Shown here in pieces: positions 21,437 to 53,800 of a stretch of DNA of 64,000 nt. Location of the stretch: NCBI GenBank assembly GCA_932294295.1, contig OW028579.1:34173250-34237249 (forward strand). Direction: 5' to 3'. Position numbers and translations under genes: made by a program. Below the pieces are notes generated by a model, which did no database searches, was not told the origin of the DNA, and saw nothing but the letters and a program-made list of their open reading frames with translations. This stretch comes from Alitta virens (Eukaryota > Annelida > Polychaeta > Phyllodocida > Nereididae). Every line of letters begins with the position of its first letter. The stretch's first letter is position 1.

Positions 21437-23149
21437 AAAATGTTTATTCTACTTTTATTTGTCACAAGAAAAAAAGGGTTCGCTAAGCCATCAAATTTTT
21501 ATTCCCCTTTTATTTGTCACAAGAGACAAGGGGTTCACTAAGCCATCCAATTTTTATTCCACTTTTATTTGTCACAAGAGACAAGTGGTTCACTAAGCCA
21601 TCAAATTTTTATTCCACTTTTATTTGTCACAAGAGACAAGGGGTTCGCTAAGCCATCACATTTTTATTCCCCTTTTATTTGTCACAAGAGACAAGTGGTT
21701 CACTAAGCCATCAAATTTTTATTCCACTTTTATTTGTCACAAGAGACAAGGGGTTCGCTAAGCCATCCAATTTTTATTCCACTTTTATTTGTCACAAGAG
21801 ACAAGTGGTTTACTAAGCCATCCAATTTTTATTCCCCTTTTATTTGTCACAAAAGACAAGGGGTTCGCTAAGTCATCAAATTTTTATTCCACTTTTATTT
21901 GTCACAAGAGACGAGGGGTTCGCTAAGCCATCCAGTTTTTATTCCACTTTTATTTGTCACAAGAAATAAGGGGTTCGCTAAGCCATCACATTTTTATTCC
22001 CCTTTTATTTGTCACAAGAGACAAGTAGTTCACTAAGCCATCAAATTTTTATTCCACTTTTATTTGTCACAAGAGACAAGGGGTTCGCTAAGCCATCCAA
22101 TTTTTATTCCACTTTTATTTGTCACAAGAGACAAGTGGTTTACTAAGCCATCCAATTTTTATTCCACTTTTATTTGTCACAAAAGACAAGGGGTTCGCTA
22201 AGTCATCAAATTTTTATTCCACTTTTATTTGTCACAAGAGACGAGGGGTTCGCTAAGCCATCCAGTTTTTATTCCACTTTTATTTGTCACAAGAAATAAG
22301 GGGTTCGCTAAGCCATCACATTTTTATTCCCCTTTTATTTGTCACAAGAGACAAGTGGTTCACTAAGCCATCCAATTTTTATTCCACTTTTATTTGTCAC
22401 AAGAGATGAGGGGTTCACTAAGCCATCAAATTTTTATTCCACTTTTATTTGTCACAAGAGAAATTTTTATTTCACTTTTATTTGTCACAAGAGACAAGGG
22501 GTTCGCTAAGCCTTTAAATTTTTATTCCACTTTTATTTGTCATAAGAGACAAGGGGTTCGCTAAGCCATCAAATTTTTATTCAACTTTTATTTGTCACAA
22601 GAGACAAGGGGTTTGCTAAGCCTTCAAATTTTTATTCCACTTTTATTTGTCACAAGAGACAATGGGTTCGATAATTCATCAAATTTGTATTCCACTTTTA
22701 TTTGTCACAATAGACAAGGGGTTCACTAAGCCATCCAATTTTTATTCCACTTTTATTTGTCACAAGAGAAATTTTTATTCCACTTTTATTTGTCACAAAA
22801 GACAAGGGGTTCGCTAAGTCATCAAATTTTTATTCCACTTTTATTTGTCACAAGAGACGAGGGGTTCGCTAAGCCATCCAGTTTTTATTCCACTTTTATT
22901 TGTCACAAGAAATAAGGGGTTCACTAAGCCATCAAATTTTTATTCCACTTTTATTTGTCACAAGAGACAAGGGGTTCGCTAAGCCATCAAATTTTTATTC
23001 CACTTTTATTTGTCACAAGAGACGAGGGGTTCGCTAAGCCATCAAATTTTTATTCCACTTTTATTTGTCACAAGAGACGGATTCGCTAAGCCATCAAATT
23101 TTTATTCCATTTTTATTTGTCACAAGATACGAGGGGTTCGCTAAGCCAT

Positions 23150-23330
23150 CGCTTATCTTGAGTCACCTCCTAATCAGCTAATGGTTCCCAAAAATAGGGA
23201 AAATGTCCCATGTCGACATTTAAGAAAAAATCTAATGTTACTTTTAAGGAGATAGAGTATTATTTAAGAGCTTCAGTGTCACTTCGTCATTGGTTAAGAG
23301 GAGCAATGTTGCACTGTCGATTTTTGTCAC
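23150..23330 (+). repeat. Spacer segment of the minisatellite, copy A
   Basis: About 175 bp unlike the monomer, from GCTTATCTTGAGTCACCTCC to GAGCAATGTTGCACTGTCG. Two further copies lie at 25315-25495 and 26355-26515. They punctuate the array, so each array block plus spacer is a super-repeat. Copies A and B are nearly identical; C has a deletion after CATGTGGACATCTAA. Confidence 0.95.
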
Positions 23331-25314
23331 AAGAGATAAGGGGTTCACTAAGCCATCAAATTTTTATTCCACTTTTATTTGTCACAAGAGACAAGGGGTT
23401 CGCTAAGCCATCAAATTTTTATTCCACTTTTATTTGTCACAAGAGACGGGTTCGCTAAGCCATCAAATTTTTATTCCCCTTTTATTTGTCACAAGAGACA
23501 AGGGGTTCACTAAGCCATCCAATTTTTATTCCACTTTTATTTGTCACAAGAGACAAGTGGTTCACTAAGCCATCAAATTTTTATTCCACTTTTATTTGTC
23601 ACAAGAGACAAGGGGTTCGCTAAGCCATCACATTTTTATTCCCCTTTTATTTGTCACAAGAGACAAGTGGTTCACTAAGCCATCAAATTTTTATTCCACT
23701 TTTATTTGTCACAAGAGACAAGGGGTTCGCTAAGCCATCCAATTTTTATTCCACTTTTATTTGTCACAAGAGACAAGTGGTTTACTAAGCCATCCAATTT
23801 TCATTCCACTTTTATTTGTCACAAAAGACAAGGGGTTCGCTAAGTCATCAAATTTTTATTCCACTTTTATTTGTCACAAGAGACGAGGGGTTCGCTAAGC
23901 CATCCAGTTTTTATTCCACTTTTATTTGTCACAAGAAATAAGGGGTTCGCTAAGCCATCACATTTTTATTCCCCTTTTATTTGTCACAAGAGACAAGTGG
24001 TTTACTAAGCCATCCAATTTTTATTCCACTTTTATTTGTCACAAGAGATGAGGGGTTCACTAAGCCATCAAATTTTTATTCCACTTTTATTTGTCACAAG
24101 AGAAATTTTTATTCCACTTTTATTTGTCACAAGAGACAAGGGGTTCGCTAAGCCATCAAATTTTTATTCAACTTTTATTTGTCACAAGAGACAAGGGGTT
24201 CGCTTAGCCTTCAAATTTTTATTCCACTTTTATTTGTCACAAGAGACAAGGGGTTCGCTAAGTCATCAAATTTGTATTCCACTTTTATTTGTCACAATAG
24301 ACAAGGGGTTCACTAAGCCATCCAATTTTTATTCCACTTTTATTTGTCACAAGAGAAATTTTTATTCCACTTTTTTTTGTCACAAAAGACAAGGGGTTCA
24401 CTAAGTCATCAAATTTTTATTCCACTTTTATTTGTCACAAGAGACGAGGGGTTCGCTAAGCCATCCAGTTTTTATTCCACTTTTATTTGTCACAAGAAAT
24501 AAGGGGTTCACTAAGCCATCAAATTTTTATTACACTTTTATTTGTCACAAGAGACAAGGGGTTCGCTAAGCCATCAAATTTTTATTCCACTTTTATTTGT
24601 CACAAGAGACGAGGGGTTCGCTAAGCCATCAAATTTTTATTCCACTTTTATTTGTCACAAGAGACGGATTCGCTAAGCCATCAAATTTTTATTCCATTTT
24701 TATTTGTCACAAGAGACAAGGGGTTCGCTAAGCCATCAAATTTTTATTCAACTTTTATTTGTCACAAGAGACAAGGGGTTCGCTTAGCCTTCAAATTTTT
24801 ATTCCACTTTTATTTGTCACAAGAGACAAGGGGTTCGCTAAGTCATCAAATTTGTATTCCACTTTTATTTGTCACAATAGACAAGGGGTTCACTAAGCCA
24901 TCCAATTTTTATTCCACTTTTATTTGTCACAAGAGAAATTTTTATTCCACTTTTTTTTGTCACAAAAGACAAGGGGTTCACTAAGTCATCAAATTTTTAT
25001 TCCACTTTTATTTGTCACAAGAGACGAGGGGTTCGCTAAGCCATCCAGTTTTTATTCCACTTTTATTTGTCACAAGAAATAAGGGGTTCACTAAGCCATC
25101 AAATTTTTATTACACTTTTATTTGTCACAAGAGACAAGGGGTTCGCTAAGCCATCAAATTTTTATTCCACTTTTATTTGTCACAAGAGACGAGGGGTTCG
25201 CTAAGCCATCAAATTTTTATTCCACTTTTATTTGTCACAAGAGACGGATTCGCTAAGCCATCAAATTTTTATTCCATTTTTATTTGTCACAAGATACGAG
25301 GGGTTCGCTAAGCC

Positions 25315-25495
25315 ATCGCTTATCTTGAGTCACCTCCTAATCAGCTAATGGTTCCCAAAAATAGGGAAAATGTCCCATGTCGACATTTAAGAAAAAATCT
25401 AATGTTACTTTTAAGGAGATAGAGTATTATTTAAGAGCTTCAGTGTCACTTCGTCATTGGTTAAGAGGAGCAATGTTGCACTGTCGATTTTTGTC
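25315..25495 (+). repeat. Spacer segment of the minisatellite, copy B
   Basis: Nearly identical to copy A (23150-23330) over its whole length, 2165 bp downstream of it. Confidence 0.95.
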
Positions 25496-26354
25496 ACAAG
25501 AGATAAGGGGTTCACTAAGCCATCAAATTTTTATTCCACTTTTATTTGTCATAAGAGACAAGGGGTTCGCTAAGCCATCAAATTTTTATTCCACTTTTAT
25601 TTGTCACAAGAGACAAGGGGTTCGCAAAGCCGTCAAATATTTATTCCACTTTTATTTGTCACAAGAGACAAGGGGTTCGCTAAGCCATCAAATTTGTATT
25701 CCACTTTTATTTGTCACAATAGACAAGGGGTTCGCTAAGCTATCAAATTTTTATCCCCTTTTTATTTGTCACAAGAGAAATTTTTATTCCACTTTTATTT
25801 GTCACAAGAGACAAGGGGTTTGCTAAGCCATCAAACTTTTATTCCACTTTTATTTGTCACAAGAGACGAGGGGTTCGCTAAGCCATCAAATGTTTATTCC
25901 ACTTTTATTTGTCACAAGAGACGATGGGTTCGCTAAGCCATCAAATTTTTATTCCACTTTTATTTGTCACAAGAGACGAGGGGTTCGCTAAGCCATCAAA
26001 TTTTTATTCCACTTTTATTTGTCACAAGAGAAATTTTATTCCACTTTTATTTGTCACAAGAGACAAGGGGTTCGCTAAGCCATCAAATTTTTATTCCACT
26101 TTTATTTGTCACAAGAGACAAGGGGTTCTCTAAGCCATCAAATGTTTTTTCCACTTTTAATTGTCACAAGAGACGAGGGGTTCGCTAAGCCATCAAATTT
26201 TTATTCCACTTTTATTTGTCACAAGAGACGAGGGGTTCGCTAAGCCATCAAATTTTTTTTCCACTTTTATTTGTCACAAGAGACGGATTCGCTAAGCCAT
26301 CAAATTTTTATTCCATTTTTTTTTGTCACAAGATACGAGGGGTTCGCTAAGCCA

Positions 26355-26515
26355 TCGCTTATCTTGAGTCACCTCCTAATCAGCTGATGGTTCCCAAAAA
26401 TAGGAAACAATGTCCCATGTGGACATCTAACTTTTAAGGATATAGAGTATTATTTAAGAGCTTCAGTGTCACTTTGTCATTGGTTAAGAGGAGCAATGTT
26501 GCACTGTCGATTTTT
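26355..26515 (+). repeat. Spacer segment of the minisatellite, copy C (shortened)
   Basis: Same order of blocks as A and B with a small internal deletion and substitutions (CAGCTGATGG for CAGCTAATGG). It marks the right end of the array. 26516-26920 is unique, moderately GC-rich DNA with no recognised gene. Confidence 0.9.
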
Positions 26516-27050: not shown

Positions 27051-27575
27051 ACCACACCACCTAGCATGAGATCATGAGGTGAGTTTAAGGTGAGCTAACT
27101 ATGATATCATCTTGTGATCTCATCCTGTGAGCTCTGAGTGAGGTCACTGTGAGCGTAGTGTTAGCTCACGTCTTCACTGGGACCACACCACCTAGCATGA
27201 GATCATGAGGTGAGTTTAAGGTGAGCTAACTATGATATCATCTTGTGATCTCATCCTGTGAGCTCTGAGTGAGGTCACTGTGAGCGTAGTGTTAGCTCAC
27301 GTCTTCACTGGGACCACACCACCTAGCATGAGATCATGAGGTGAGTTTAAGGTGAGCTAACTATGATATCATCTTGTGATCTCATCCTGTGAGCTCTGAG
27401 TGAGGTCACTGTGAGCGTAGTGTTAGCTCACGTCTTCACTGGGACCACGCCACCTAGCGTAAGATCATGAGGTGAGTTGATGGTGAGCTAACTGTGATAT
27501 CATCTTGTGATCTCATCATGTGAACTTTGAGTGAGGTCACTGTGAGTGTAATGTAAGCTCACGTCTTCACTGGGT
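27051..27575 (+). repeat. 131-bp tandem repeat, four copies
   Basis: Units start at 27051, 27182, 27313 and 27444 (ACCACACCACCTAGCATGAG) and end TTAGCTCACGTCTTCACTGG. The first three are almost identical and the fourth is diverged. The unit is rich in GTGAGCT and GAGGTCACTGTGAG, as is the block at 49380-49895. Confidence 0.97.
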
Positions 27576-30800: not shown

Positions 30801-33800
30801 AAATTGTTTGGTGAGGATTCAAAATGTCATGGGGTGGTCACTCATTCTAGAGTCAAAAGTTTTAAGATAGTTGTCAATTGCTTGTGCTTTCTCATTGCTT
30901 TCATGCTGCAATGGAAGAGAATAGGACTGTTACTGGATTGTATTATATTGTATTAATTGCCGGTCATTGACCAGGTGTCAGAGGCAGAGTTTTGAGATAA
31001 GTCCACACCATGTTACCCAATTACCCAATAGGTGGGTTGTTTGCTGCTGATCGATCGACACTGAGTAAAAGGCATCACCAATTGAACTTCTCATGCAACT
31101 GACATGTACAGTAATAAGCATCACCAAAGTGATGTCTTGTGCAACTGAAATTCGGTTAAGATGTAACTCGTGAAGAGTGCTCAGGCCAACAGTCAAACCT
31201 GGGACATTCAGCGGAGCTGGTCAGTGGGTTAACCATAGTACTTGGTAAGATCTAGTTATATACTTTACAAAGGTTGATTTATGTATACAATTCAATAAAG
31301 TAGTAGGTATTGTTTATCTTTGCGTATAGCTCAACCTAATAAGGAAATGTACTTACGCTTCAGTACTGTACATGCAATGAGCGGCTGTTACAATCCATTC
31401 AGCGGTTATTAATGATGCTCCACACTGAGAAGAATTAAACATTCAATTAGTTTCATAAAATACGGTCGACTCTAGTCAGCTATAGCAACTTATTCCTGGC
31501 TGTAACTGTAACTGGCTAAAGCCAGCTGCTTCTGTCTACTTCTACCTTATGGTTTATGTTTCCACGTCTGATGTTTGTATTGTTGTAATGTAAAACCACA
31601 TGTCAATAAAGATAAATAAATAAATAATAAAATATAGTCAGCTTAAACTACCACCACTGAAAAAATATAAACCTTGGTATTGGAATTGATCTAATATATC
31701 ATATCCATGTTTGTGCAATTGCCATGCATCTTTTAACTTATGCAGCAAATGGTGCTGCTTGTACTTTTAGATCTGGCTTTGTGTAGCCAGCTATAGCCAG
31801 ATATAGCCAGACAGTCCCGTCTTTTTGGCAGGTAGCATCGTATAGCAGAAGTTGTCTAGCTTTGTCTGGGTTTAATTTGACAGGCCGTTTTTAATAAAAC
31901 TACATGTATGTCACCTCAGATCAATGTACATGATATCTATTGGGGCAGACGACTAACTTTTAATATATTGAAAAATAAAGCTAACATGATAGTAAATTTT
32001 AAACGACATGGGCGTCAGTCATTTTGAACACTCGTCAAAAGTTGTGCGTGTATTTTACATTAAAGGTCAATCAATGACAAGGGGAATTTGAATGGCACAA
32101 ATAATGCTCTAACCAATGTCAGAAGAAGACAGAACTAGTTCGACCGAAGAGTACACACAAAATCGCATTTTACAATGAGTGATTTGTGGAAGAGTGAAGA
32201 TTTATATTTGTAAGGTTGCTCCAAAAAAAAGAACTCAAGGTAAAAAAAACCCTTGCTCCCCAGAGTTTTTTCCATTCCCCTTGTCATTTTATGAAATTTG
32301 TGAAAAAATTAGGTCAATATCTCCATTCTAAGCCATGCCACCAGGCTGTACCATTGAATTTGTATGGGCTCGAACACCATCATACCGTGGTTTTTGTTTC
32401 AGTTAAGTTAAAAGTATATTTTCACTTTATTGCACACTAGTGCAGAGCTCTAACTAGACATCATGTAAAACAATATTGATCATAATTAGCAGAGAGTTTA
32501 GTCTCAACACACATTTGACTTATTAATTCTTACTAAGAAGTATGCATTTGCAAAATTCTGGAATATGTGACAATGCACTGAAATTAACTTGTGACATATT
32601 GCTCTTAAATGCATAATATCCTTATTGTATATATGTCATATAGTCTGAGCTCGGTGACCATTATATTTTAGAATATATTAATTATATAAATTAGTACATT
32701 AAATTAACATACCCTAAATAAACAAAATGGTTTCTTGACCTTAGAAATTTATCTTGAATAAGTTGTGGTCCTATAGGCATAATATTCTCATTGCATACAT
32801 TTCAAATAGTCTGAGCTGAGCTTGGGTTTTCATATAATTATATACTTTTATTTGTAATTTGATGTTAAGTGTAATATAATATGTAATAATACTATTCAGC
32901 AAATTTGAATTAGTATGAACATTATATTTGATTCAGTTTTTATTGTATATATGCAATTAGTTGTGATTTCATATTACATGAGAAATTGTTAAATTTTGTT
33001 TCACCTTTCCTACATAAGTTTGTGTGAACCTAGATTTACTCTGTTTTATAATAGCCAAATTTAAAGTTTTATTGCATTACTTTTTTTCCAGTGATAAAAA
33101 AAATGTATCCTACTATTACAAAAAGACTAAAATAGCATTCTGGCTGAGTATGGAATTTGGCAAGGAAAGCTAATGGACGTTCTCACAGTCCGTTACTGTT
33201 TCCTTAGATTTGATGAGCAATACAGTGCACAAGGGTTTGCTGCATAGGCAGTGCTATGTTTCATAAATAGAAGAAATGTTTGAGAACATCTTCCTTGGTG
33301 AGGATTCTGTGTTGAACACGTTCAGGAATTGATTTTCCAAGGAGCAATGTGTTGTTATCCTTTTTAAGACCAGGTCCCTCAAGGCTTAAACTCACAATTT
33401 GGAGGTAAAATTTTGCATGGTAGTTGATCTGTATCATAGGAATGGGAAAAGCTCCAGGGAGCAATCTTTTGAAAACATTTTAAAGAAACTACCAATTTTA
33501 GAACACCCTGATTTTTATAGTACTCCAGAAAAAATGTAAAAACTGTGCCAGCATGGCGAGTGGTGCCTTATAGTGATCTTCTGATGGCATTTCTGTGAGA
33601 CTGTTACTTTTACCTTTCTCAACTGGTATGGCCACTACTGATATGGCCCAGTGAATCTCTGACACTCTATATAGTATAAGATAATCCCCAGATAACATGC
33701 CAGATCCAGTTGATATCGTTCCAATGATGGCCTTTTTCGACAGATATCGTGCAGAGGTTTAGCTTGTTATCTAGGTTCTTAGCAATTAAGCTATATTCAC

Positions 33801-36800
33801 TAAAGTTCTTAACATGGGACTGGAGTATGAATCTTTAAATTTGAACTAAAAAGCGCATGCTTGTTTGGAAAGTGTTGATGCCCATGAAGGCTATCCACGC
33901 AATCATTAGAAATATGAACTCCATAAACTCGCATTTATTTGGAGTAAACTCCATAAACTCACATTTGTTTGGAAAGTGTTGGTGCTAAGTTAAGGCTATC
34001 CAAGGAAATCATTAGAAATATGAACTCCATAAACTCACATTTATTTGGAGTAAACTCCATAAACTCACATTTGTTTGGAAAGTGTTGGTGCTAAGTTAAG
34101 GCTATCCAAGGAAATCATTAGAAATATGAACTCCATAACCTCACATTTATTTGGAGTAAACTCCATAAACTCACATTTGTTTGGAAAGTGTTGGTGCTAT
34201 GTTAAGGCTATCCAAGGAAATCATTAGAAATATGAACTCCATAAACTCGCATTTATTTGGAATGAACTCCATAAACTCACATTTGTTTGGAATGTGTTGG
34301 TGCTAAGTTAAGGCTATCCAAGGAAATCATTAGAAATATGAACTCCATAAACTCGCATTTATTTGGAATGAACTCCATAAACTCACATTTGTTTGGAAAG
34401 TGTTGGTGCTAAGTGATATGTTTGTAATATTTTTTGTAATATTTTTAACACATTCTTCAGGGAAATAGGATCAGAAATTGGAGGTATAGAGGATAACACT
34501 AGAAACACTGAACAAATAATCACTGACTATGCTAATCATTCCAGTGTAAACACAATTCTGGAAAATATAAATCAAAATAGACGAAAGTTTGACTTCTGAC
34601 ACGTGAGGGAACATGAAGTCCGAAAAGCTATAAAATCCTTATGTGCAAACAAAGCAGGAGGTTGCGATGAAATCCCAATAAAATTCATTAAACAGACTAG
34701 TGAGAATCTTATCAAACCAGTAACTTTAATAGCTAACAAATGTATTGAATAACAAAAGTTTCCGGATAACATGAAAAAGGCTAACATAGCACCCCCATAC
34801 AAAAAGAAGGACAAACTAAATAAAGATAACTATAGATCAGTAAATTTGCTCATAGCTCTATCAAAGGTAATAGAAAAAATTATGTATAACCAGATATATG
34901 AATACGTACAACCATCACTACACAAATACTTATCTGGATTTAGAAAGGGTTATGGTTGTCAAGACATATTAGTAAGAATGACAGAGGACTGGAGAAACGC
35001 ATTAGATAATGACCAAAAAATAGGGATAGTCGCAATTGATCTATCAAAAGCATTTGACTGTATGTCTCATGGCCTATTAATTACCAAACTTCATGCATAT
35101 GGCTTTAGCATGAATGCATGTGAAATGATCAAATCTTACCTAATAGAAAGATTGCAACGCGTCAAAATAGGTGATACTTTCTCAGAATGGGTAACAAACA
35201 TTAAGGGCATCCCACAAGGGTCTATACTCGGCCCCTTGTTATTCAACATCTTTATAAATGATTTCCTGTACTTGAATATAGGATCAAAGACCTATAACTA
35301 TGCCGACGACACTACACTTTCTTATATTAGCTCTAATTTAAGTGAAGTCACGAAAACCCTGGAAGATGATTGTGTAATTGCCATGGAATGGTTCCAAGCA
35401 AACTACATGAAAGCTAATGCAGAGAAATTTCAACTAATGTTTCTAAGCAAACAGGACACAACTAACAACCAAACCATAAGAATAAATGATAAATTTATTA
35501 AGTCATCCTCATCCATAAATGTGTTAGGCATAGAGATCGATAGCAAACTAAACTTCAAGATTCACATAGATGATATCTGTAATCAGACAAGTAAGCAAAT
35601 CAACACTATATATATATAGATTTTATTGACATGTAAAATATCATAAATGATACATATGTCATTCAGTTAAAAGATAACATGAAAGAGACATTAATGTAAG
35701 TACAGAAAGCAATAAAATTTCAATAATCAAGGTTCCAGCCACCAAGTTAACTTATAATACGTGTTTAAAATCCACATACACAATAGAAAAAAATACAAGC
35801 CGCTAATAAAAACATTTCACTCTCAAAGTCCAAAACATGACAAGCACATCATAACTAATAAACTAATAAACTAAATTAATAACTGTGTGGATACAGGAGA
35901 TGGTTTTCTCTACACATCAGCTTGAAGGAGAAACTTTCCTAAACTAATTAATAACTCAGGTTCCTTGTTTGTCATTATTGCTGTAAACTTAGTTATATCA
36001 TCTAGAGACAAGAAGTTGTTAATAAATTTAGTTGCATTCAAAAAAAGGTTAACACGGTGTTGCTCATTACCAGGACAGACAATCAAACAGTGAATTTCGT
36101 CTTCTACAAAGTTTAACGTACACTTTTCACATATTCTATTTGGAGCAGGAATTATTGGTTTATGGTGTCGACCTGTTTCAATCTTCAGGCTATGTGAACT
36201 TGTCCTAAATCTAGCTATTTTAGTTAACACTTTGCGAATTTGTTGCAATTCAAGATAAGGTTCTATTCTACAATCAGTTTTAAATAGTTTATATGTCCTA
36301 AGTTTTGGTTGTTGTGAACTGTCATTTATTGCATTTATAAGTCGCTCATGTTCGGCTTCATAGAGTCTTAGTTTCACTGTGTTAGAGATATTATCAATGT
36401 CAAAGTTTCTGAGGTTACTAATATCATATTCAATGTTGCAGTTATTTAATACATGACACACTTTACTGAACCAGTTATTTCCATTTACTGCATTCACATA
36501 AATTTCCTTCTGAAAATTTAAACATTTCTTAAGTAAACTGTCATCAGGTGCTCTTTCCAATCTTATCCAGTAATTCACCAATTCACACTATTTGGATAAA
36601 CAATGTAAAAACACTTTATATAATAGTTATATAGGTAGCAACTTTAACTATTGTCCTCTAGTCTGGATGTTCACTGGCAAATTAAACATGGATAAACTCG
36701 AGAAGATGAACAAAAGAGCACTAAGATTCGTTGAAAATCAAAATATAATGCCGTACGAAGAACTATGTCGAGAAGCTAATAAATTAACAATCACCCAAAG

Positions 36801-39517
36801 ATGCATAAAATCAGTGGCTATACAAATGTACAAAATAAAGAGTAAAACGGCCCCCACATACTTACAGGAACTTTTTTCTGATAGGGAAGATCTCTACAAT
36901 CTGAGGACAAATGACACTTTTCATATTCCCCATTTCCAAACAATGACATATGGCAAAAAAAGTTTTCGGTATTATGGAAGTCAATTGTGGATGCATATAC
37001 CAAGTAACATCAGAAGCAAAGTATCACTCAGTAGCTTCAAATCCGCTGTGACTAGCTGGCTGTATTCTCAAAATAATACAAATATATATTTTTTATAAAT
37101 GTAGATGTGACAGACTAATCTTGTCAAAATTTCTGCATTGAAATATTTAAGAATCATTTGTGCAATCTTTATTTCCTCTAAGGTGCTGAATTGTACGATG
37201 GAGTGCTTTATATGTGTGCTATTATTATTATTATATATATACTATATTGTAGAATAGACTTGTTCTATAGATTAATTCTATACTTATACTTTCCGTGATT
37301 TAAAACGACTTTAAATAAAATTTTACTACTACTACTACTAAGTTAAGGCTATCCAAGGAAATCATTAGAAATATGAACTCCATAAACTCGCATTTATTTG
37401 GAATAAACTCCATAAACTCGCATTTGTTTGGAAAGTGTTGGTGCTAAGTTAAGGCTATCCAAGGAAATCATTAGAAATATGAACTCCATAAACTCGCATT
37501 TATTTGAAATAAACACCATAAACTCACATTTGTTTGGAAAGGGTTCATGCCAATTAAGGCCATCCAAGGAAATTCTCCTGGCCTGGCTGGGATTCCATTG
37601 AGAATTCTGGCATCCAAGTCTTCTGCTTTTGCATAGACTTTCAATATCTTTGCCAGTAGTGTTTCTAGATTTGTTGACTTCTTTGATTTTTGGTTCATGT
37701 ACTTGTTTATTCCACAGCTTGCTTCATTGATATCTTGCAAAAAATAAATTAATGATAATTTGTCATATATTACTTGCAATGAAAATCTTATTATGATGGA
37801 TTTTTTAAAATGTTTAGCTTGCAACTAAAAAATAGGCAATAGATTTTAATTCATAGCTTGCAACAAACAAAAATACGGTAGTATTTTTCATTGACAGATT
37901 GTAATAAGCATATATACACATTTTCATTGATAGGTTGCAACAAACCAAAAATAAATTTTTACTTATATTAGCAACAAACAGACAGATAATTGATTTGTAG
38001 TTTGCAACAAACAGACAAAATATTATTATTTATAACTTGTCGGAACAAATAGACAATCGATTTTCATTGATAGATTACAAACAAACGTGATAATGGTAGA
38101 GATTTAAAAATACTTTTGGCACACTCCCAATATTGAATTTATTAATATATGACAATTGGTCTCATTTAATAGACATGCAGAATATTTTCTATGCCACTGT
38201 AGATAAGTCCCTTTATGTTCTACCAAAATAACTATAGATATAGTGGAAAGAAAATAACTTATAAGGGTAATGCAGGGATACCTTACTTTCATGGGTATTA
38301 TCGTCTGTCTCATGGAAGACTGATCTTATTCAAATTAGACCAGTTTTGAATTCATATCTCATTCTGACTATTTATTCCTCATGTTCAATTCTGAACTGTC
38401 AAATTCCTGGTAGAAATAGGCCTATGTTAAAGTTGTGAAAATTGCTGTAAATAACTTATTGTCTGAGTTATTTATGTTAAGTTGTCAAAGCATTGTGGAA
38501 ACAAGCAATTGAGTGTAAATGCTAAGATAAATTAGTTTGAATTGGCTTAGTGCTGCGCGGATATTTTCACTATTGGTAGTACCAAACCATTAAAGGAAGA
38601 CTGTACTAAATTGATTTTGGACAGATAACTCTGTCTGAAGTACACTTTTCTATTAGAAAACCTGAAAACAGACCATACCCTAGCTGTTTAGGCACAGTCT
38701 TCCATAAATATAATACATGGAAATCACGAAAGAGTTGTTTGTGCTGTACTGATAGTATCCATGGTGAGACCGTATTACACAGAAAAATACTTTAACATCA
38801 GAGTATCAAAATAAAGAGGAAGGCTATATTGAAAAATATAGCTTATTTCTCTCTGATACACTACAAAATTTATATCACTATACTCTGCTTGAAGTGATTT
38901 GATGGATTCCAAAAATGCTTTGATTTTTCTGTGAAATATCGAGGATTTGGTGTTTGAGAGAAGTGAAAACAAAATAAGCTCTCCTGAAAATTGCAAATTT
39001 CACTTCGGCACAGTCTTCCATGAGATAGACGTTATGTACACTCCAATGACGTAATCAAACAATGATGTCATATTAAGATGACGTCATTAAACAATGATTT
39101 GGGCGCAGTTACTGATAGCTCCCTCTATTGGTAAATATAGTAGCCCATTAGCCCCATGGGACTGGCTTGCAAGGCAGTCTGTTTGGGCTAGCTCCAATAC
39201 ATACCTCTTACGTTGTTGTGAAGACTTTCAGTTTTCTTATTCCTTGTTGCAAGAGCCTGAAGGAGTCTTTCAATGGTATCTGATTAATTGTTGACAAAAA
39301 ATTCTTTGGTCAAAAGTAACAAAATTTCAAGCGTAGATCTAACCTTTTTACTGTACTACCTTGCATACATAGTGAAATCTGACAAAAAAAAGAACCATCA
39401 TTTGATTTATATACACGTAGCTAGGAATCCTATTCGAATGAAAAATTCTTTACCTGGTTTTGCTAAGGCCGTGCTGGTGATTATGGCCATGTACAGCAGT
39501 AGACCGATTGGACGCAT
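27859..39517 (-). CDS. Secreted trypsin-like serine protease (S1) with glycine-rich tail, 7 coding exons
   Basis: Exons, 5' to 3' on the minus strand: 39517-39454, 37733-37528, 31424-31357, 29968-29823, 29498-29349, 28748-28606, 28272-27859. All are GT-AG with matching phases; 396 aa. Residues 1-19 are a signal peptide (MRPIGLLLYMAIITSTALA). A propeptide with C28 precedes the activation site R64|ILNG. The catalytic triad is complete: H106 (VTAAHC), D168 (NDIALI), S262 (GDSGGP). D256, six residues before the serine, corresponds to trypsin D189 and predicts cleavage after Lys/Arg; SYG and PGVYT follow the usual order. After QWIEDNI (about 310) comes a tail not typical of the family: SGGG, five-fold (G)GYGGGT repeats, an acidic Asp/Asn/Glu stretch, and a hydrophobic amphipathic-looking end (TNTFYGVLKQLLKVLN). 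The 21-bp DNA repeat behind GGYGGGT is nearly exact, so repeat number may vary. Intron 2 (6.1 kb) contains the 106-bp array and nested LINEs. The substrate is unknown. Confidence 0.95.
27965..28055 (-). repeat. 21-bp coding minisatellite in the protease tail
   Basis: The minus-strand unit GGAGGTTATGG[A/G]GGAGGTACT encodes GGYGGGT and occurs about five times in tandem with third-base differences. Confidence 0.9.
30123..30778. mobile_element. ~650-bp TIR element, copy 1 (PIF/Harbinger-like MITE)
   Basis: The left end is AGCTCCGTTCACACTGTCAT and the right end, inverted, is AGGGGCATTCACACTGTCAC. It is flanked by TTA on both sides. The interior shares CGAGTGACCACAGATGTCC and CGCTCGGCAGACG with copies at 59521 and 63144. 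A different repeat (related to 4424-4516) is embedded at about 30470-30660. No transposase frame is seen. Confidence 0.8.
30960..31210 (-). mobile_element. SINE-1 copy, minus strand, diverged
   Basis: Shows the complement of CTCAGTGTCGATCGA, ACCCAATTACCCAATAGGTG and TGCCTCTGACACCTGGTCA, as in the clearer minus copy at 40985-41195. It has internal duplication around GCATCACCAA. Confidence 0.55.
31426..33860. other. Protease intron 2, distal part; no gene recognised
   Basis: AT-rich unique DNA. A 13-bp inverted repeat, ATGACAAGGGGAA (32074-32086) / TTCCCCTTGTCAT (32275-32287), may mark a decayed element. TAGCCAG/CTGGCTA motifs recur at 31490-31530 and 31790-31815. No conserved coding exon was found on either strand. 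Confidence 0.5.
33870..34414 (-). repeat. 106-bp tandem array derived from the protease exon 2/intron 2 junction (left block)
   Basis: TAAGGCTATCCAAGG recurs at 33991, 34097, 34203 and 34309, exactly 106 bp apart, with a diverged unit from 33886. On the minus strand each unit reads ATTTCCTTGGATAGCCTTAA ... CTTTCCAAACAAAT|GTGAGT, matching the last ~45 bases of exon 2 (ATTTCCTTGGATGGCCTTAA ... CCTTTCCAAACAAAT) plus its splice donor and the first ~55 intron bases. Each unit also has an internal ~30-bp half duplication. The copies carry stops in the exon frame, so they are not functional exons. Confidence 0.9.
34415..37343 (+). mobile_element. Non-LTR retrotransposon, 5' truncated and inactive, inserted in the 106-bp array
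   Basis: The plus strand encodes an RT: a broken start (in-frame stops near 34597 and 34750), then an open stretch 34771-35619 with NYRSVNLL, AIDLSKAFDCMSHGLL, GIPQGSILGPLLFNIFINDF and YNYADDTTLSY, and after an inner insertion the C-terminal part 36592-37098 (NSYIGSNFNYCPLVWMF, ALRFVEN, FRYYGSQLWMHIPSNIR). This order is typical of CR1/Jockey-superfamily LINEs; the endonuclease part is missing. The 3' end is AAATAAAATTTTACTACT..., an (ACT)n tail. CTAAGT flanks both sides (34409-34414 and 37338-37343), a short target-site duplication. It is dead because of stops, truncation and the inner insertion. Confidence 0.9.
35610..36582 (-). mobile_element. Second LINE fragment nested inside the first, opposite strand
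   Basis: The minus strand is open from 36581 to 35910. Residues include NYWIRLERAPDD, NWFSKVCHVLNN, LRTYKLFKTDCRIEPYLEL, IARFRTSSHSLKIETGRHH and a CCHC-type motif C-x2-C-x9-H-x4-C (ICEKC ... IHCLIVC). This is the C-terminal region found after the RT domain in many invertebrate LINE-like ORF2 proteins; the RT itself is absent, so the copy is 5' truncated. Its 3' end carries AATAAA and a (TA)n tail at 35610-35618. ACACTAT is found at both junctions (35603-35609; 36585-36591). The frame of the host RT does not rejoin across it, so the host had, or gained, a small indel. Confidence 0.85.
37338..37527 (-). repeat. 106-bp exon-derived tandem array (right block, next to the true exon)
   Basis: TAAGGCTATCC starts at 37344 and 37450; the next in register, at 37555, is the real exon 2 copy. 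The spacing stays 105-106 bp across the LINE insertion once its 2929 bp are removed, which ties the two blocks into one array anchored on the functional exon. Confidence 0.9.
37740..38100. repeat. Degenerate tandem repeat around TTGCAACAAACAGACA
   Basis: Five to six units of roughly 35-70 bp containing (A)GCTTGCAACAAACA and TTTTCATTGATAG, in protease intron 1. Period and identity are irregular. Confidence 0.6.
38305..39025. repeat. Inverted repeat pair TCTCATGGAAGACTG, ~700 bp apart
   Basis: CTGTCTCATGGAAGACTGAT near 38308 and its complement CACAGTCTTCCATGAGATAG near 39008. A nested pair GGAAGACTGT (about 38594) / ACAGTCTTCC (about 38692) shares the core. Possibly a decayed TIR element; no coding content. 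Confidence 0.5.
39080..39150. mobile_element. Partial copy of the 15055-15228 MITE
   Basis: GACGTCATTAAACAATGATT, then GCGCAGTTACTGATAGCTCC, then CTATTGGTAAATATAGTAGC, ending CCCATTA. This matches the right arm of the 15-kb element. Confidence 0.7.
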
Positions 39518-47887: not shown

Positions 47888-50800
47888 GGTACACTTAGGT
47901 TGCAAGGTATATTTGGAAAATTAAATCATTTAAATGTAAATAAAAGGTTATGAATTCATTTCTTTCATGATTATCAAAAGAATAAATTTGATAATTCTAA
48001 AGTTCATGAAGAGAAAGTAAAATACACTGGTCATCCAGTGACAGTCTGTAGACTTTACCATCACTATACTCACCCGGACACTCGGCCCAATTCGAATTGT
48101 CAATAAAGCACCAGTACGTTCGGTGAGCCACTGTCGTGCATTCGAAATATGGAATATTTTCCCAGTAAAATATAGGAAGACAAGGTCCTCCCACTGTCCC
48201 TGCAATACCATTCACATTCACCGTGTAATCTGAAAAGCAAGACAGATTTCTTATAGACAGATAGATAGATAGATAGATTATAGATAGATAGATGGATAGA
48301 CGGATAAATAGATTTATGGATGTAGATTGATGGATAGATACAAAAATGTAGATGGATAGATGGATAGATAGATAGATAGAGACAAATTGGTTACAGAATA
48401 GAAATTGGAATTATTAATGTTACATTGTAAAAAAAATGTTTAAAATATATTGTGGTGGGCCAAATTGTCCATTATAAATCATTGTTGGTTTTCACAGACA
48501 CTCAGCACATCATGTATATACATATTTGCATGCAACACGATACATGTGTTGATATTTAAGTTTGAGATAACAAGTGAAGTGTTAATATTTATAATATATT
48601 ATTTATATTATTATGATATTTTAACATTGGGTCTATTTCCTGGTGCGTAACATAGGCTCATCTTCAGCCTACAAAAAAAGAGCAGGAGTGTGAATCGAAC
48701 TCGGGTCACCCACACAGAAAGCAGGAATGCTAAGCATTACACCACATATACCACAACTGCAGGTGGTGATTCAAGGATCACAATAAAGCAGCAGTTCTAT
48801 TTAAAGTTTGAGTGATACATACAAATATTATATAAGAGGTATTTCAAAAACTTCAAGGTCACTTAACAAACTATGGTGCAGGGTTCTTCCAAAACACCCT
48901 AGTAGTATACCATTTACGCCCCTCGAAGGTCCTGGGCCTCCACGCGGCGAGGGTGGAAACACTTGGGGTGAAGTCCTCTATCCCCAGTGGCTAAAACAGG
49001 ACAGTGCCCATTGCACAAGCTGCTCCAGCTATCCAACGTAGACACTTATTGATTTTTTGCATGCTTCTGGTTTCTACTACCAACTATGGATGATCAATCT
49101 TACCCTAGAGAGCCTCTACATAGCCCACTCAGGTGCTGATGAGGCGTTAAACATTAACACTACCTACCTACCAGTATACCATTTACACAAGTAACTGTCA
49201 TCACATAATAATTTTTAGAGGGTTCCACTGCACCAATCCACAAATATATATGAATTACATTGTAATACTCTCCCAGCTTATTCGTTTTGTTTAATTATCA
49301 AGAAGAGCCTACCTATTTTCTATGTGACTGGCTGGTGTAGTGGTTAAGGTGTAGAACTGTTAGGCATGGGTAACCCAGTCAAGAAGTTAGCTCATGTCAT
49401 GGTCACTGTGACCTCACCAGACACTCATCGTGTGATGTCAAACATGACAAGATCACAGTGAAATCATGATGAGGTCATGCGGTGATCATCATTAGATGTA
49501 ACAAAGCTACACAGCTTAATTGCTCCAGGCTACTATGGGATGGGATTGTTGCAGAATGATAGGAGCATGCATGATCAGCTGGCAGTTAGCTCACAGAGAG
49601 GTCATACTGTGACCTCCCAGTGTGAGTTCAGGTGAGCTCCGTGAGGGTTCTGTGACCTTACAGTGAGCTCACAGGCTACCATGGGATGGGAATGTTGCAG
49701 AAACATAGAATCACACATGATAAGCTAAGTTAGCACAGAGAAGACTCACATTGTGACCCCACTCTGTGAGTTCACTGTGAGACCACTTTATGGTTACAAG
49801 TTAGCTCAGTGACCTCACAGTGTGATGTCTCCAGGAGTTTCTGTGAGCTAAATGTGAGCTCACTGTGAGTTCAAATTCTTCACTGGGGTTGGGATGAACA
49901 CATAACTTACCAAGACATGGTGGTTGTGCAGAGGTACTTAAACATGGTGCAGCTGAAACATAAAATGATACAGGAGAAATCATTTTATGAAAAATCTGAC
50001 ATAGAATTTAAAATGTTTAGTTTGAATTGAATCCTGCTATAACAGCTACATATATGGTCAATGCGCTGACAGTTAATTGTTGAATTGACGTAGAAAGTTC
50101 CACGCCATTCAGTGATCCTTATTGTATCACATTTAACCCTGCCAGTGCTTCCTGGGGGCTTGGAGTCCTAGCTTGTGTTTTGTATCGATGTAACTGGGCT
50201 TCTGTTACTATCAGTATCCCTTGGTTTTATGTATTCCTTGAGAAAGATACAAATAAACCATGGTAGAATTGATACGTTATGTATTCTTATCTTCTGCTAA
50301 AAAAACTGCATTGATGAGTCACACTCCTATATAATTCAGGAGTAATAAATTCAACCTGGAACAAATAGGTAACAAGCTGAAAACTTCAGGAAATGTTTAA
50401 GTCCCAAAAAATCCCCCTTGTGGCAAAGCAGGAATTCAAGATGGCGTCCAAACTGGCTGTCATTTTCATTTATATGTCTAAATATGAAGCTTGAGAGTTT
50501 AGATGTATGATTGTTCTTTTTTCGGTCTTTGGGAATATGTGGCAGTTTGCAACGCGTACACATCTCAAAACTGACATAAAATTGCAGCATCCTATTTTCA
50601 GGGCTTTGTTTCATGTCTTTGTATATTTTGAAACATTTTAGAAAACAAAATGAAGGTAAATATGAATTTTCCGAAAGTTTATGAATTTTTTTGACCAAGA
50701 AACACTAAATTCTATCACTTGTAAACTTCTGTATTGGTGAGAGTCAGTGGGTGGTGTCCCAGCCACAGATTCAATGCAGTAAAGCCTTTGGCTGATATTC

Positions 50801-53800
50801 TACCATTCCTGCATGAGTGCATCTTCCTTCAGCATGGCCTCCATCTCCGCGTGGCTCCACTGTGCAGCCTTGCTCTATATCGTGCCAATGCCATGGATTT
50901 TTTACTGTAACCCTAAGGCGGCGAAGGCAAGAGTCAAGCAATAATAAACATCAGACAATGCACAGGGTGTCAAAATATTTTTACAGGTGATTTTTTGCAC
51001 TTAAAATAACTTTCAGTTCTACCAGCGTGGAAGGTAAGGGGTCCCTTTTTCCAACTCCATGGCTCAGTTAGTCTGAACAGTGGTCAATCAGTTGCCATCA
51101 GGGGAATAGGGTGATATGGCGTAGTGTGGCATAGCATGGCATAGTGTGTCCTGGCAGACCATCGTCTCCAGAAGTTGGATAGTTGTTTCCATCCTTCATC
51201 TCATTGCTATGGTCCCTGCCTGTCCTAATTAGCCCAACAGGTTCAGAAATACAGGACGTTAAAGCCCTAATCCACCCACCCAGTAGTTGCCTGTTACTCT
51301 CACCACTGCTTGTTTATCTCCACCTATCCTGGTGGTGTTTCATTCATCTCATTGCCATGGTCCCTGCCTGTCCTAATTAGCCCAACAGGTCCAGAAATAC
51401 AGAACATAAAGCCCTAATCCACCCACCCAGTAGTTGCCTGTTACTCTCACCACTGCTTGTTTGTCTCCACCTATCCTGATGGTGTTTCATCCTTCATCTC
51501 ATTGCCATGGTCCCTGCCTGTCCTAATTAGCCCAACAGGTCCAGAAATACAGGACGTTAAAGCCCTAATCCACCCACCCAGTAGTTACCCGTAACTCTCA
51601 CCACTGCTTGTTTGTCTCCACCTATCCTGGTGGTGTTTCATCCTTCATCTCATTGCCATGGTCCCTGCCTGTCCTAATTAGCCCATCAGGTCCAGAAATA
51701 CAGGACATTAAAGCCCTAATCCACCCACCCAGTAGTTGCCTGTTACTCTCACCACTGCTTGTTTGTCTCCACCTATCCTGGTGGTCTTGGTGCAGTCCTC
51801 AGATAATCGCTCACCTGGAGTCCTGCATATAGACTCGTCTGACACCAACATGCTTCCAGTGCCTCAGCCTGCACTGCTTGCATATTTCAGTATTCAAATG
51901 AGGTTTGTAGGCTAGGCAGGAAGGACAACAATCCTCGTGTAACCAATTACAGTTCATAGTCTGTCTGGAGAGATGAAACCTTGTCCTGTTTGGAATGCAT
52001 CCTAGTTATTATCAATTGTTGTTTTATCTGATTCTGCCTAAGCTGAACAGGACTCCTTTACCCTGCTGTTTTTTTTTAACATAAAGATCTTTTGCATGTC
52101 TACAAAATCCATTCATTCTGTTATCTTCCAGAATAACCTGGCTTTAATAGATCTTTTCATCTGCATATTGCTTTACAAGCTTGGTCACTGCTTTGTGAAA
52201 CACTTGTCAGTTTACCACCATCAAACTCTGACATATCAAACAACAATACATTTAATCAAATATTGCATTTACAATGAACTTTCACACTCCTAAACTCTCA
52301 AGCATATATTCTGATAAGTAAATGTTCATATACTGATGAAAAACATTGTACTGACTGGAGACAACTCCTTTGCATGTAAAATGCCATTTTATCTAAAATA
52401 AAAATTATATCATTTGTATCTTCCTACATTCCAGAGCATCATGCATGGATATGTTAAATTAAATTCTGATATAATTGATCATGTTTTTTTCACTTATTGT
52501 TTTACTTCCAGATGTGTAAAACAGAGATTCCAGTAACCTATACCAGAAACTACATGAAACAACAAAAATTGCCGCTATGGTACTAATATTATGTTACTTA
52601 TTCATCTAATCTTAAGAAAAATGATTTTATAGAATTCCTTATGTTTGAAAACCTATATTTGGACTCTTTGTTCGAATTAATATCATGTCTCAAGCCTGAG
52701 ATATGATGAAATTGACAATGGCAGCCGTTTTGGATGCCATCTTGAATTCCCGCTTTGCCATAAGGGGGATTTTTGGGGACTTTCAATATGTTATTCCTGA
52801 TCTTTTCTGAACATTTCCTGAAATTTTTAGCTGGTTACTAATTTCTTCCAGGTTTGACCCCATTCTGTGCTACTGCTCCTGAACTATAGCTGTTCTATCC
52901 CATAATGACTCATGAGGTAGTTGGGTTATTATCTGGAAAATGGCATATTTGGCCTTCAAAACATAGAAAATAAATGTTCCTTGTAAAGCAACTGTATGCA
53001 TGTGATCAGATGGAGAAAACTCCCAGGAATAAACACGTTTTCTGTTACAGCAAAAAATCACAGCTGAATTTATCATCCTGTAATAAAATGGAAGCGTTAC
53101 AGATGGATTACCTTGACTTACTTTGAAGTTCACAGGGGTAAAATTCTACATAAACCTTGTACCTTCAACAGATGACATGACAGATTCAGGTATATTCTTG
53201 CTAGGATAGTGCAACTTGCACAGATTATCATTTCAGATAATTTCAAATATGTGTGACCATGACCTGTATCTGAGGTGGGTGGCGGACGAAACGGCTACTC
53301 ACGAAAACGGCTACAGCCAAAACGTCTACAACCATAAAGCCAACAGCGAAAACGGCTACATGACGATAACCAAAACATCTACACCAATTTCCGGGACATA
53401 ACCAAAACGTCCATACGGTTTATAAAGCCTTAGCCAAAACGTCCACATGCTTTTTCGCTACTTAACCATAATGTCTACAGTGCCTTTTCCCGCTGACCAA
53501 AACGGCTACACTTACAGACCAAAACGTCCACAGACCAGCACAGCTTTAATTAGACAGGACCAATGCAATGGAATAATTGGAGGGGGAGAAAATCAGGTCA
53601 ATTGTCAAGGTGAACTACTCTTGGGTAAGTTGTGATGTGTCAAGTTTTACTCAGGTGTCAGAATAAATTGCAATTGCAGGTCCTTTAATTGCCGCCGGTC
53701 GTACCATCAATAACATGCAATCGTGGCTTCTCCTTGTGATCGTAGCTACACTTCGTTTTATGAAAGTGTAGCCGTTTTGGGGTATGAAAGTGTAGCCGTT

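Follow-up and report, generated by a model that had tools for sequence, protein, structure and literature searches.

How an intron comes to hold serial copies of its own 5′ splice site, and what becomes of splicing among them, is the question raised by a protease gene of the annelid Alitta virens, located on the minus strand of the 64,000-nucleotide stretch of DNA analysed here (the window). The gene codes for a VWA/FN2-like/trypsin protease, the trypsin part of which is formed by six exons with GT-AG introns in one reading frame, with the triad His/Asp/Ser present and a PF00089 match of the joined trypsin exons at E 4.5e-51 (Pfam). The exon that was copied, hereafter the source exon, ends with its true donor in AAACAAAT/GTGAGT, the splice site lying at 37528/37527. 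The relevant parts of the gene are as follows.

37733-37528, minus strand: source exon, the first trypsin exon, with GT-AG borders, in frame with the five downstream exons and ending in FPWMALIGMNPFQTN
31425..37527, minus strand: array-bearing intron between the source exon and the exon 31424-31357, which also contains a LINE
31424-31357, minus strand: next exon, reading CGASLITAEWIVTAAHC behind the acceptor CTTCTCAG
29968-29823, 29498-29349, 28748-28606 and 28272-27859, minus strand: remaining trypsin exons, GT-AG and in frame

A first-pass annotation based on the letters alone had labelled the source exon 'exon 2'. As seven exons or exon candidates are recognised 5′ of it in the window, namely two VWA exons (Pfam E 1.6e-19), a stretch rich in Ser/Thr, one small exon and three exons resembling FN2, it is at least the eighth recognised exon and the label has to be dropped. 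The FN2-like exons were assigned by visual inspection and by their resemblance to one another, with no Pfam FN2 match for the one submitted. The protease gene spans 27859-62056 on the minus strand, including the three FN2-like exons and the Ser/Thr-rich linker; its trypsin domain contains DACSGDSGGP and is followed by a glycine-rich tail of 21-bp repeats, and the best protein matches among those listed are only ~30-40% identical.

The array is built from a unit of 106 bp, which combines the last 46-47 bases of the exon, the donor and ~59 intronic bases, a composition that agrees with the initial reading of exon end, donor and intron. With the LINE set aside, CCAAACAA recurs at 0, 106, 212, 318, 424, 530, 636 and 740 bases from the exon copy, whereby the spacing is exactly 106 across the units 0-636 and offset 740 belongs to a decayed unit; the proposed register with the exon is thus exact. 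The exon copy itself is offset 0, so that the true boundary is the first member of the array. The units are distributed over two blocks.

37338..37527, minus strand: exon-proximal block, made up of the intronic portion of the exon unit, of U1 and of the beginning of U2, with three GC decoys
33861..34414, minus strand: distal block, made up of what remains of U2, followed by U3-U6 and by the decayed U7; TRF period 106, 5.2 copies, 96% matches
33839..33902, minus strand: decayed terminal unit U7, matching the exon region at 73% across 70 bp, donor lost

Similarity between exon and array extends over 107 bp at 89-92% in five units and, in the unit that the LINE interrupts, over 86 bp at 92%. The local alignment score of exon against unit is 79.5, and the highest value among 500 shuffles is 18. 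Two observations had been named beforehand as speaking against an array derived from the exon, a similarity limited to a few bases and the presence of the same array at unrelated loci; the first is not seen, the homology spanning 107 bp. The interior units are mutually 94-99% identical, while the exon unit amounts to 89-92% and the terminal unit to 79-85%, in a table in which U2 is taken without one base at the computed join across the insertion. U7 reads WIAFMGINTFQTS in the frame of the exon. Within each full unit, two donor motifs are separated by 30 bp.

The interval 33870-37733 had been described as one array. The units are indeed found at the positions given, but the interval is not continuous, as 34415-37337 is a LINE of 2.9 kb that splits the array and carries in turn a second element.

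34415..37337, plus strand: LINE-type retrotransposon fragment, RVT_1 E 6e-30, in antisense orientation relative to the gene, with (TAC)n at its end
35610..36584, minus strand: second element nested in the LINE in opposite orientation, with a 7-bp duplication ACACTAT at 35603-35609 and 36585-36591

The LINE is bordered by the target-site duplication CTAAGT (34409-34414/37338-37343), and U1 and U2, which flank it on either side, are 98% identical. Since the LINE splits the array, the array is the older of the two. At least 38 other genomic places match the 5′ piece of the LINE at 94-100% (40 of 67 candidates scored), and of six fetched copies the two nearest share 97.8% identity with it across about 1.17 kb. 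The fragment is young; the nested element has an open frame of 225 aa, which gives no Pfam match. Tandem repeats are prone to mis-assembly, and an artefact in which the repeat has been collapsed or falsely expanded has to be considered, but is very improbable: the units differ from each other, the LINE sits in the array with a clean target-site duplication and the genome note gives 49-fold HiFi reads and a QV of 62.6.

With respect to the origin of the array, a search with the array alone returned two candidates in the 671,116,069-base assembly (23 contigs), both at this locus, and a query of the array with part of the LINE, for which 40 of 67 candidates were scored, found two array places, again both here, besides 38 LINE pieces. 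The second observation named beforehand, the same array at unrelated loci, is therefore not made in the assembly. The protein sequence of the exon gave four matches among 15 candidates. One is the exon's own locus, the others are three paralogs with identities of 58, 52 and 45%, and the boundary repeat is absent from all three paralogous exons. In the window, blastn with 11 exons plus 60-bp flanks recovered junction copies for the source exon only; the other matches were discarded as microsatellite, Ser/Thr-rich coding sequence or weak similarity of AT-rich DNA, or belonged to two additional FN2-like exons. Scans of the window for Rfam families and tRNA genes gave no hit. One paralogous exon, L012, is followed by an array of its own, a 114-bp unit in 5.4 copies with 99% matches (L012:1973-2593), which does not reproduce the boundary of the exon it follows.

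Exact register, homology across the boundary, a single locus and three array-free paralogs strongly support that the array arose from the exon/intron junction of the gene in which it lies, as had been proposed. That, conversely, a dispersed satellite was exonised to give the exon could be argued from the similarity alone, but there is no other genomic copy and the conserved trypsin start for which the exon codes is found in three paralogs without the repeat, which leaves this reading with hardly any probability. As the paralogs show, exon and intron position are old, and the gene model requires no new intron at the duplicated boundary.

Very probably, then, the array is a donor-side 'mirage' minisatellite, shaped jointly by duplication, homogenisation and LINE insertion. 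The last ~46 bases of the exon, the 5′ splice site and the adjoining intron would have been duplicated in tandem, presumably by slippage or unequal exchange, and the array would have grown to seven extra units, been homogenised in its middle and decayed at the end remote from the exon. The two donor motifs per unit would go back to a 30-bp duplication that spans the donor within the unit. The antisense insertion of the LINE would finally have displaced those GT decoys that survive to a distance of 3.1 kb or more from the true donor, the three motifs that stayed nearby being GC.

Traces of this history may be preserved in the codons of the copies. The codon after TGG is ATA in all tabulated units (U2 left out) and in two of the three paralogs, ATC in the third paralog and ATG in the exon; two codons on, TTC is found in U7 and two of the three paralogs as compared to TTA in the exon, U1 and U3-U6. 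Based on these two codons and on paralogs that are 45-58% identical, the copies seem to keep older codon states of the exon, with U7 the oldest, a pattern that conversion could mimic. The 30-bp duplication may have preceded or followed the 106-bp amplification, and U7 does not discriminate between the two orders.

The term mirage stems from amphioxus, where such arrays have been described in Adh3, the globins BflGb6 and BflGb9, troponin C and PGBD5, with regular splicing reportedly undisturbed (PMC3087553, PMC3902484). Common to the amphioxus cases, as far as these sources describe them, is a tandem duplication across an exon-intron boundary on the donor or acceptor side, with units of 10-160 bp, an array homogenised inside and diverged at the edge and, in several cases, splice signals that are kept, as is likewise observed here. 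The Alitta array shares the boundary-spanning unit, the true boundary at the array end, the homogenised interior with a diverged edge and the restriction to one gene. It differs in residing in an annelid trypsin gene, in being split by a LINE and in being known from the DNA of one assembly.

Whether the copied donors participate in splicing depends first on their quality; all donor and acceptor scores given here rest on splice-site weight matrices of our own. The intron holds 521 GT/GC sites including the true donor, and seven others reach the score of the true donor, of which six are array copies of the identical 9-mer and the seventh is located within the LINE. Altogether 13 decoy motifs are present, seven GT (six with the identical 9-mer, one GTGAGG) and six GC, the positions of those discussed being as follows.

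37497, 37421 and 37391, minus strand: GC decoys nearest to the true donor, exon-proximal block
34386, 34280, 34174, 34144, 34068, 34038 and 33962, minus strand: GT decoys, distal block

The first-pass annotation had counted five units with the donor kept, and CCAAACAAATGTGAGTTTATGG is found exactly at the true donor and in five units and nowhere else on either strand of the window; GCGAGT in the unit nearest to the exon is likewise located where it had been placed. With six identical 9-mers, decoys equal to the true donor in sequence do exist. The closest GT copy is 34386, 3.1 kb from the true donor. GC is found in all three motifs nearest to the donor versus three of ten beyond the LINE (Fisher p 0.07, the motifs not being independent).

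As the three nearest motifs are GC and the nearest GT lies 3.1 kb off, the decoys are probably little used. The true donor would still win over them, since no other strong GT donor lies close to the exon and longer exons would carry an in-frame stop; read-through past the true donor hits a stop before U1. Recursive splicing, suggested earlier, needs AG/GT sites and finds no support: the single AGGT of the array scores low both ways, as a donor 2.86 versus 8.01 for the true donor and as an acceptor -3.26, and this candidate was rejected for want of adequate sites. In four units, an acceptor-like AG scoring 3.52, a value above those of five of the gene model's 11 acceptors, is followed by a donor 33 nt on, and the resulting 33-nt pseudo-exon (such as 34313-34281) contains an in-frame stop. 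Acceptor-like sites are no denser in the array than in the background (four in 565 bp versus 573 on the 64-kb strand), and pseudo-exon cassettes were rejected as a special feature of the array for that lack of enrichment.

These same elements could nevertheless be put to use, array donors or stop-bearing 33-nt pseudo-exons tuning protease output by unproductive splicing. A precedent is the minisatellite of human IFI6 (6-16), in which repeat units with splice donors likewise lie beside an exon and are reported to be used as donors by the transcripts (Turri et al. 1995, as described in citing text). Together with six decoys that equal the true donor, a seventh that nearly does and the four units that pair acceptor-like AG and donor, this lends regulated decoy use some plausibility, but the unenriched acceptor-like sites, the 3.1 kb to the closest GT decoy and the amphioxus mirages reported without effect on splicing make it rather unlikely. 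The IFI6 units are, moreover, reportedly much shorter than 106 bp.

The array might also act without being spliced. U1 snRNP telescripting is established biology, and the GT decoys could serve as U1 snRNP sites that shield the long intron from premature polyadenylation. Strong donors are dense, with six in 565 bp of array as compared to 55 on the 64-kb minus strand, but this density is a by-product of copying, and we regard a role in telescripting as highly unlikely. On the sequence evidence, a mirage array that is most likely without function at present, and which we infer to be near-neutral, is the preferred reading.

Other known systems touch upon single aspects of the locus. Internal tandem repeats of human segmental duplications provide cases in which minisatellite expansion across exon-intron boundaries alters gene structure (PMC2812944); as described there, those repeats are mostly coding, with new introns and transcript support, whereas the Alitta copies stay intronic. 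In a known case of intron gain, as far as it is described, a tandem duplication crosses an intron-exon boundary as here, but gave rise to a new intron. Among the papers listed on splice-junction minisatellites or mirages, none concerns an annelid; the earthworm metallothionein gene has intronic minisatellites, in connection with which the portion of the source available does not mention splice junctions.

The donor-side array gains interest because an acceptor-side one is present in the same genome. PF00089 has 158 matches in the genome, of which 86 distinct ones were covered by a set of 30 loci and a set of 64 matches (8 overlapping). The 30 loci were checked with a 120-bp margin, whereby 3 of 30 were flagged and a 40-bp margin missed the array described below; the 64 matches were checked with margins of 70 and 90 bp, at which more distant arrays would be missed. 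Among these 86 of 158 matches one further mirage event was found, shared by three recent trypsin paralogs on contig C11 (L041, L042 and L044). The 43-bp units with TTTTCCAG/CATGTGGT end in the acceptor of the exon encoding CGQRAKHLNIPNTLIVGG, which is present in 26 (L044), 12 and 16 copies if one G/T variant is allowed and in 26, 11 and 16 exact copies, the copy number thus differing between the paralogs.

L044:3071-4378, corresponding to C11:26097570-26098877: acceptor array in L044 with 26 exact acceptor copies

In L044, 25 acceptors score 9.28-10.5, and the last one, presumed to be the true acceptor by the reading frame, scores 6.09. Extension of the exon to the three nearest upstream acceptors meets an in-frame stop. 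A query of array plus exon start found all seven matches at the three C11 places (three candidates). The two mirages have unrelated sequences, are located on opposite sides of the exon, donor and acceptor, and are independent. Five other flagged loci are not mirages: in L054 a piece of intronic repeat ends before the acceptor, in L046 and L059 one stretch contains paralogous exons, L056 is a coding tail rich in glycine, and the repeat of L057 is short and lies within the same open frame. One event in 86 matches is no evidence that mirages are frequent.

In the literature found, the name mirage is limited to amphioxus, from which such arrays are known, and the presence of a donor-side and an acceptor-side case, independent of each other, in trypsin-family genes of a single annelid suggests a wider process. 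It is conceivable, if still doubtful, that mirages reflect a mutational process which recurs at exon boundaries both in amphioxus and in this annelid, and by which junctions are amplified into decoy arrays that the spliceosome tolerates. If so, these loci would be natural experiments on the choice among identical copies, with up to 26 acceptors per array, of which 25 outscore the one presumed to be true, and on how intron gain begins, for which splice-junction arrays have been proposed as raw material. Arrays of sites equal or superior to the real one test what besides site sequence decides splicing, and their copies may preserve earlier codon states of the parent exon.

Further tandem repeats are found in and around the protease gene. 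An array of 4.9 kb with 55-bp units (21438-26356) is located downstream of it, four units of 131 bp (27051-27574) lie just 3′ of it and four units of ~151 bp (51184-51785) are located in one of its introns. The 131-bp units show a weak resemblance of about 59-68% to 49374-49873 and, in part, resemble the reverse complement of their own sequence.
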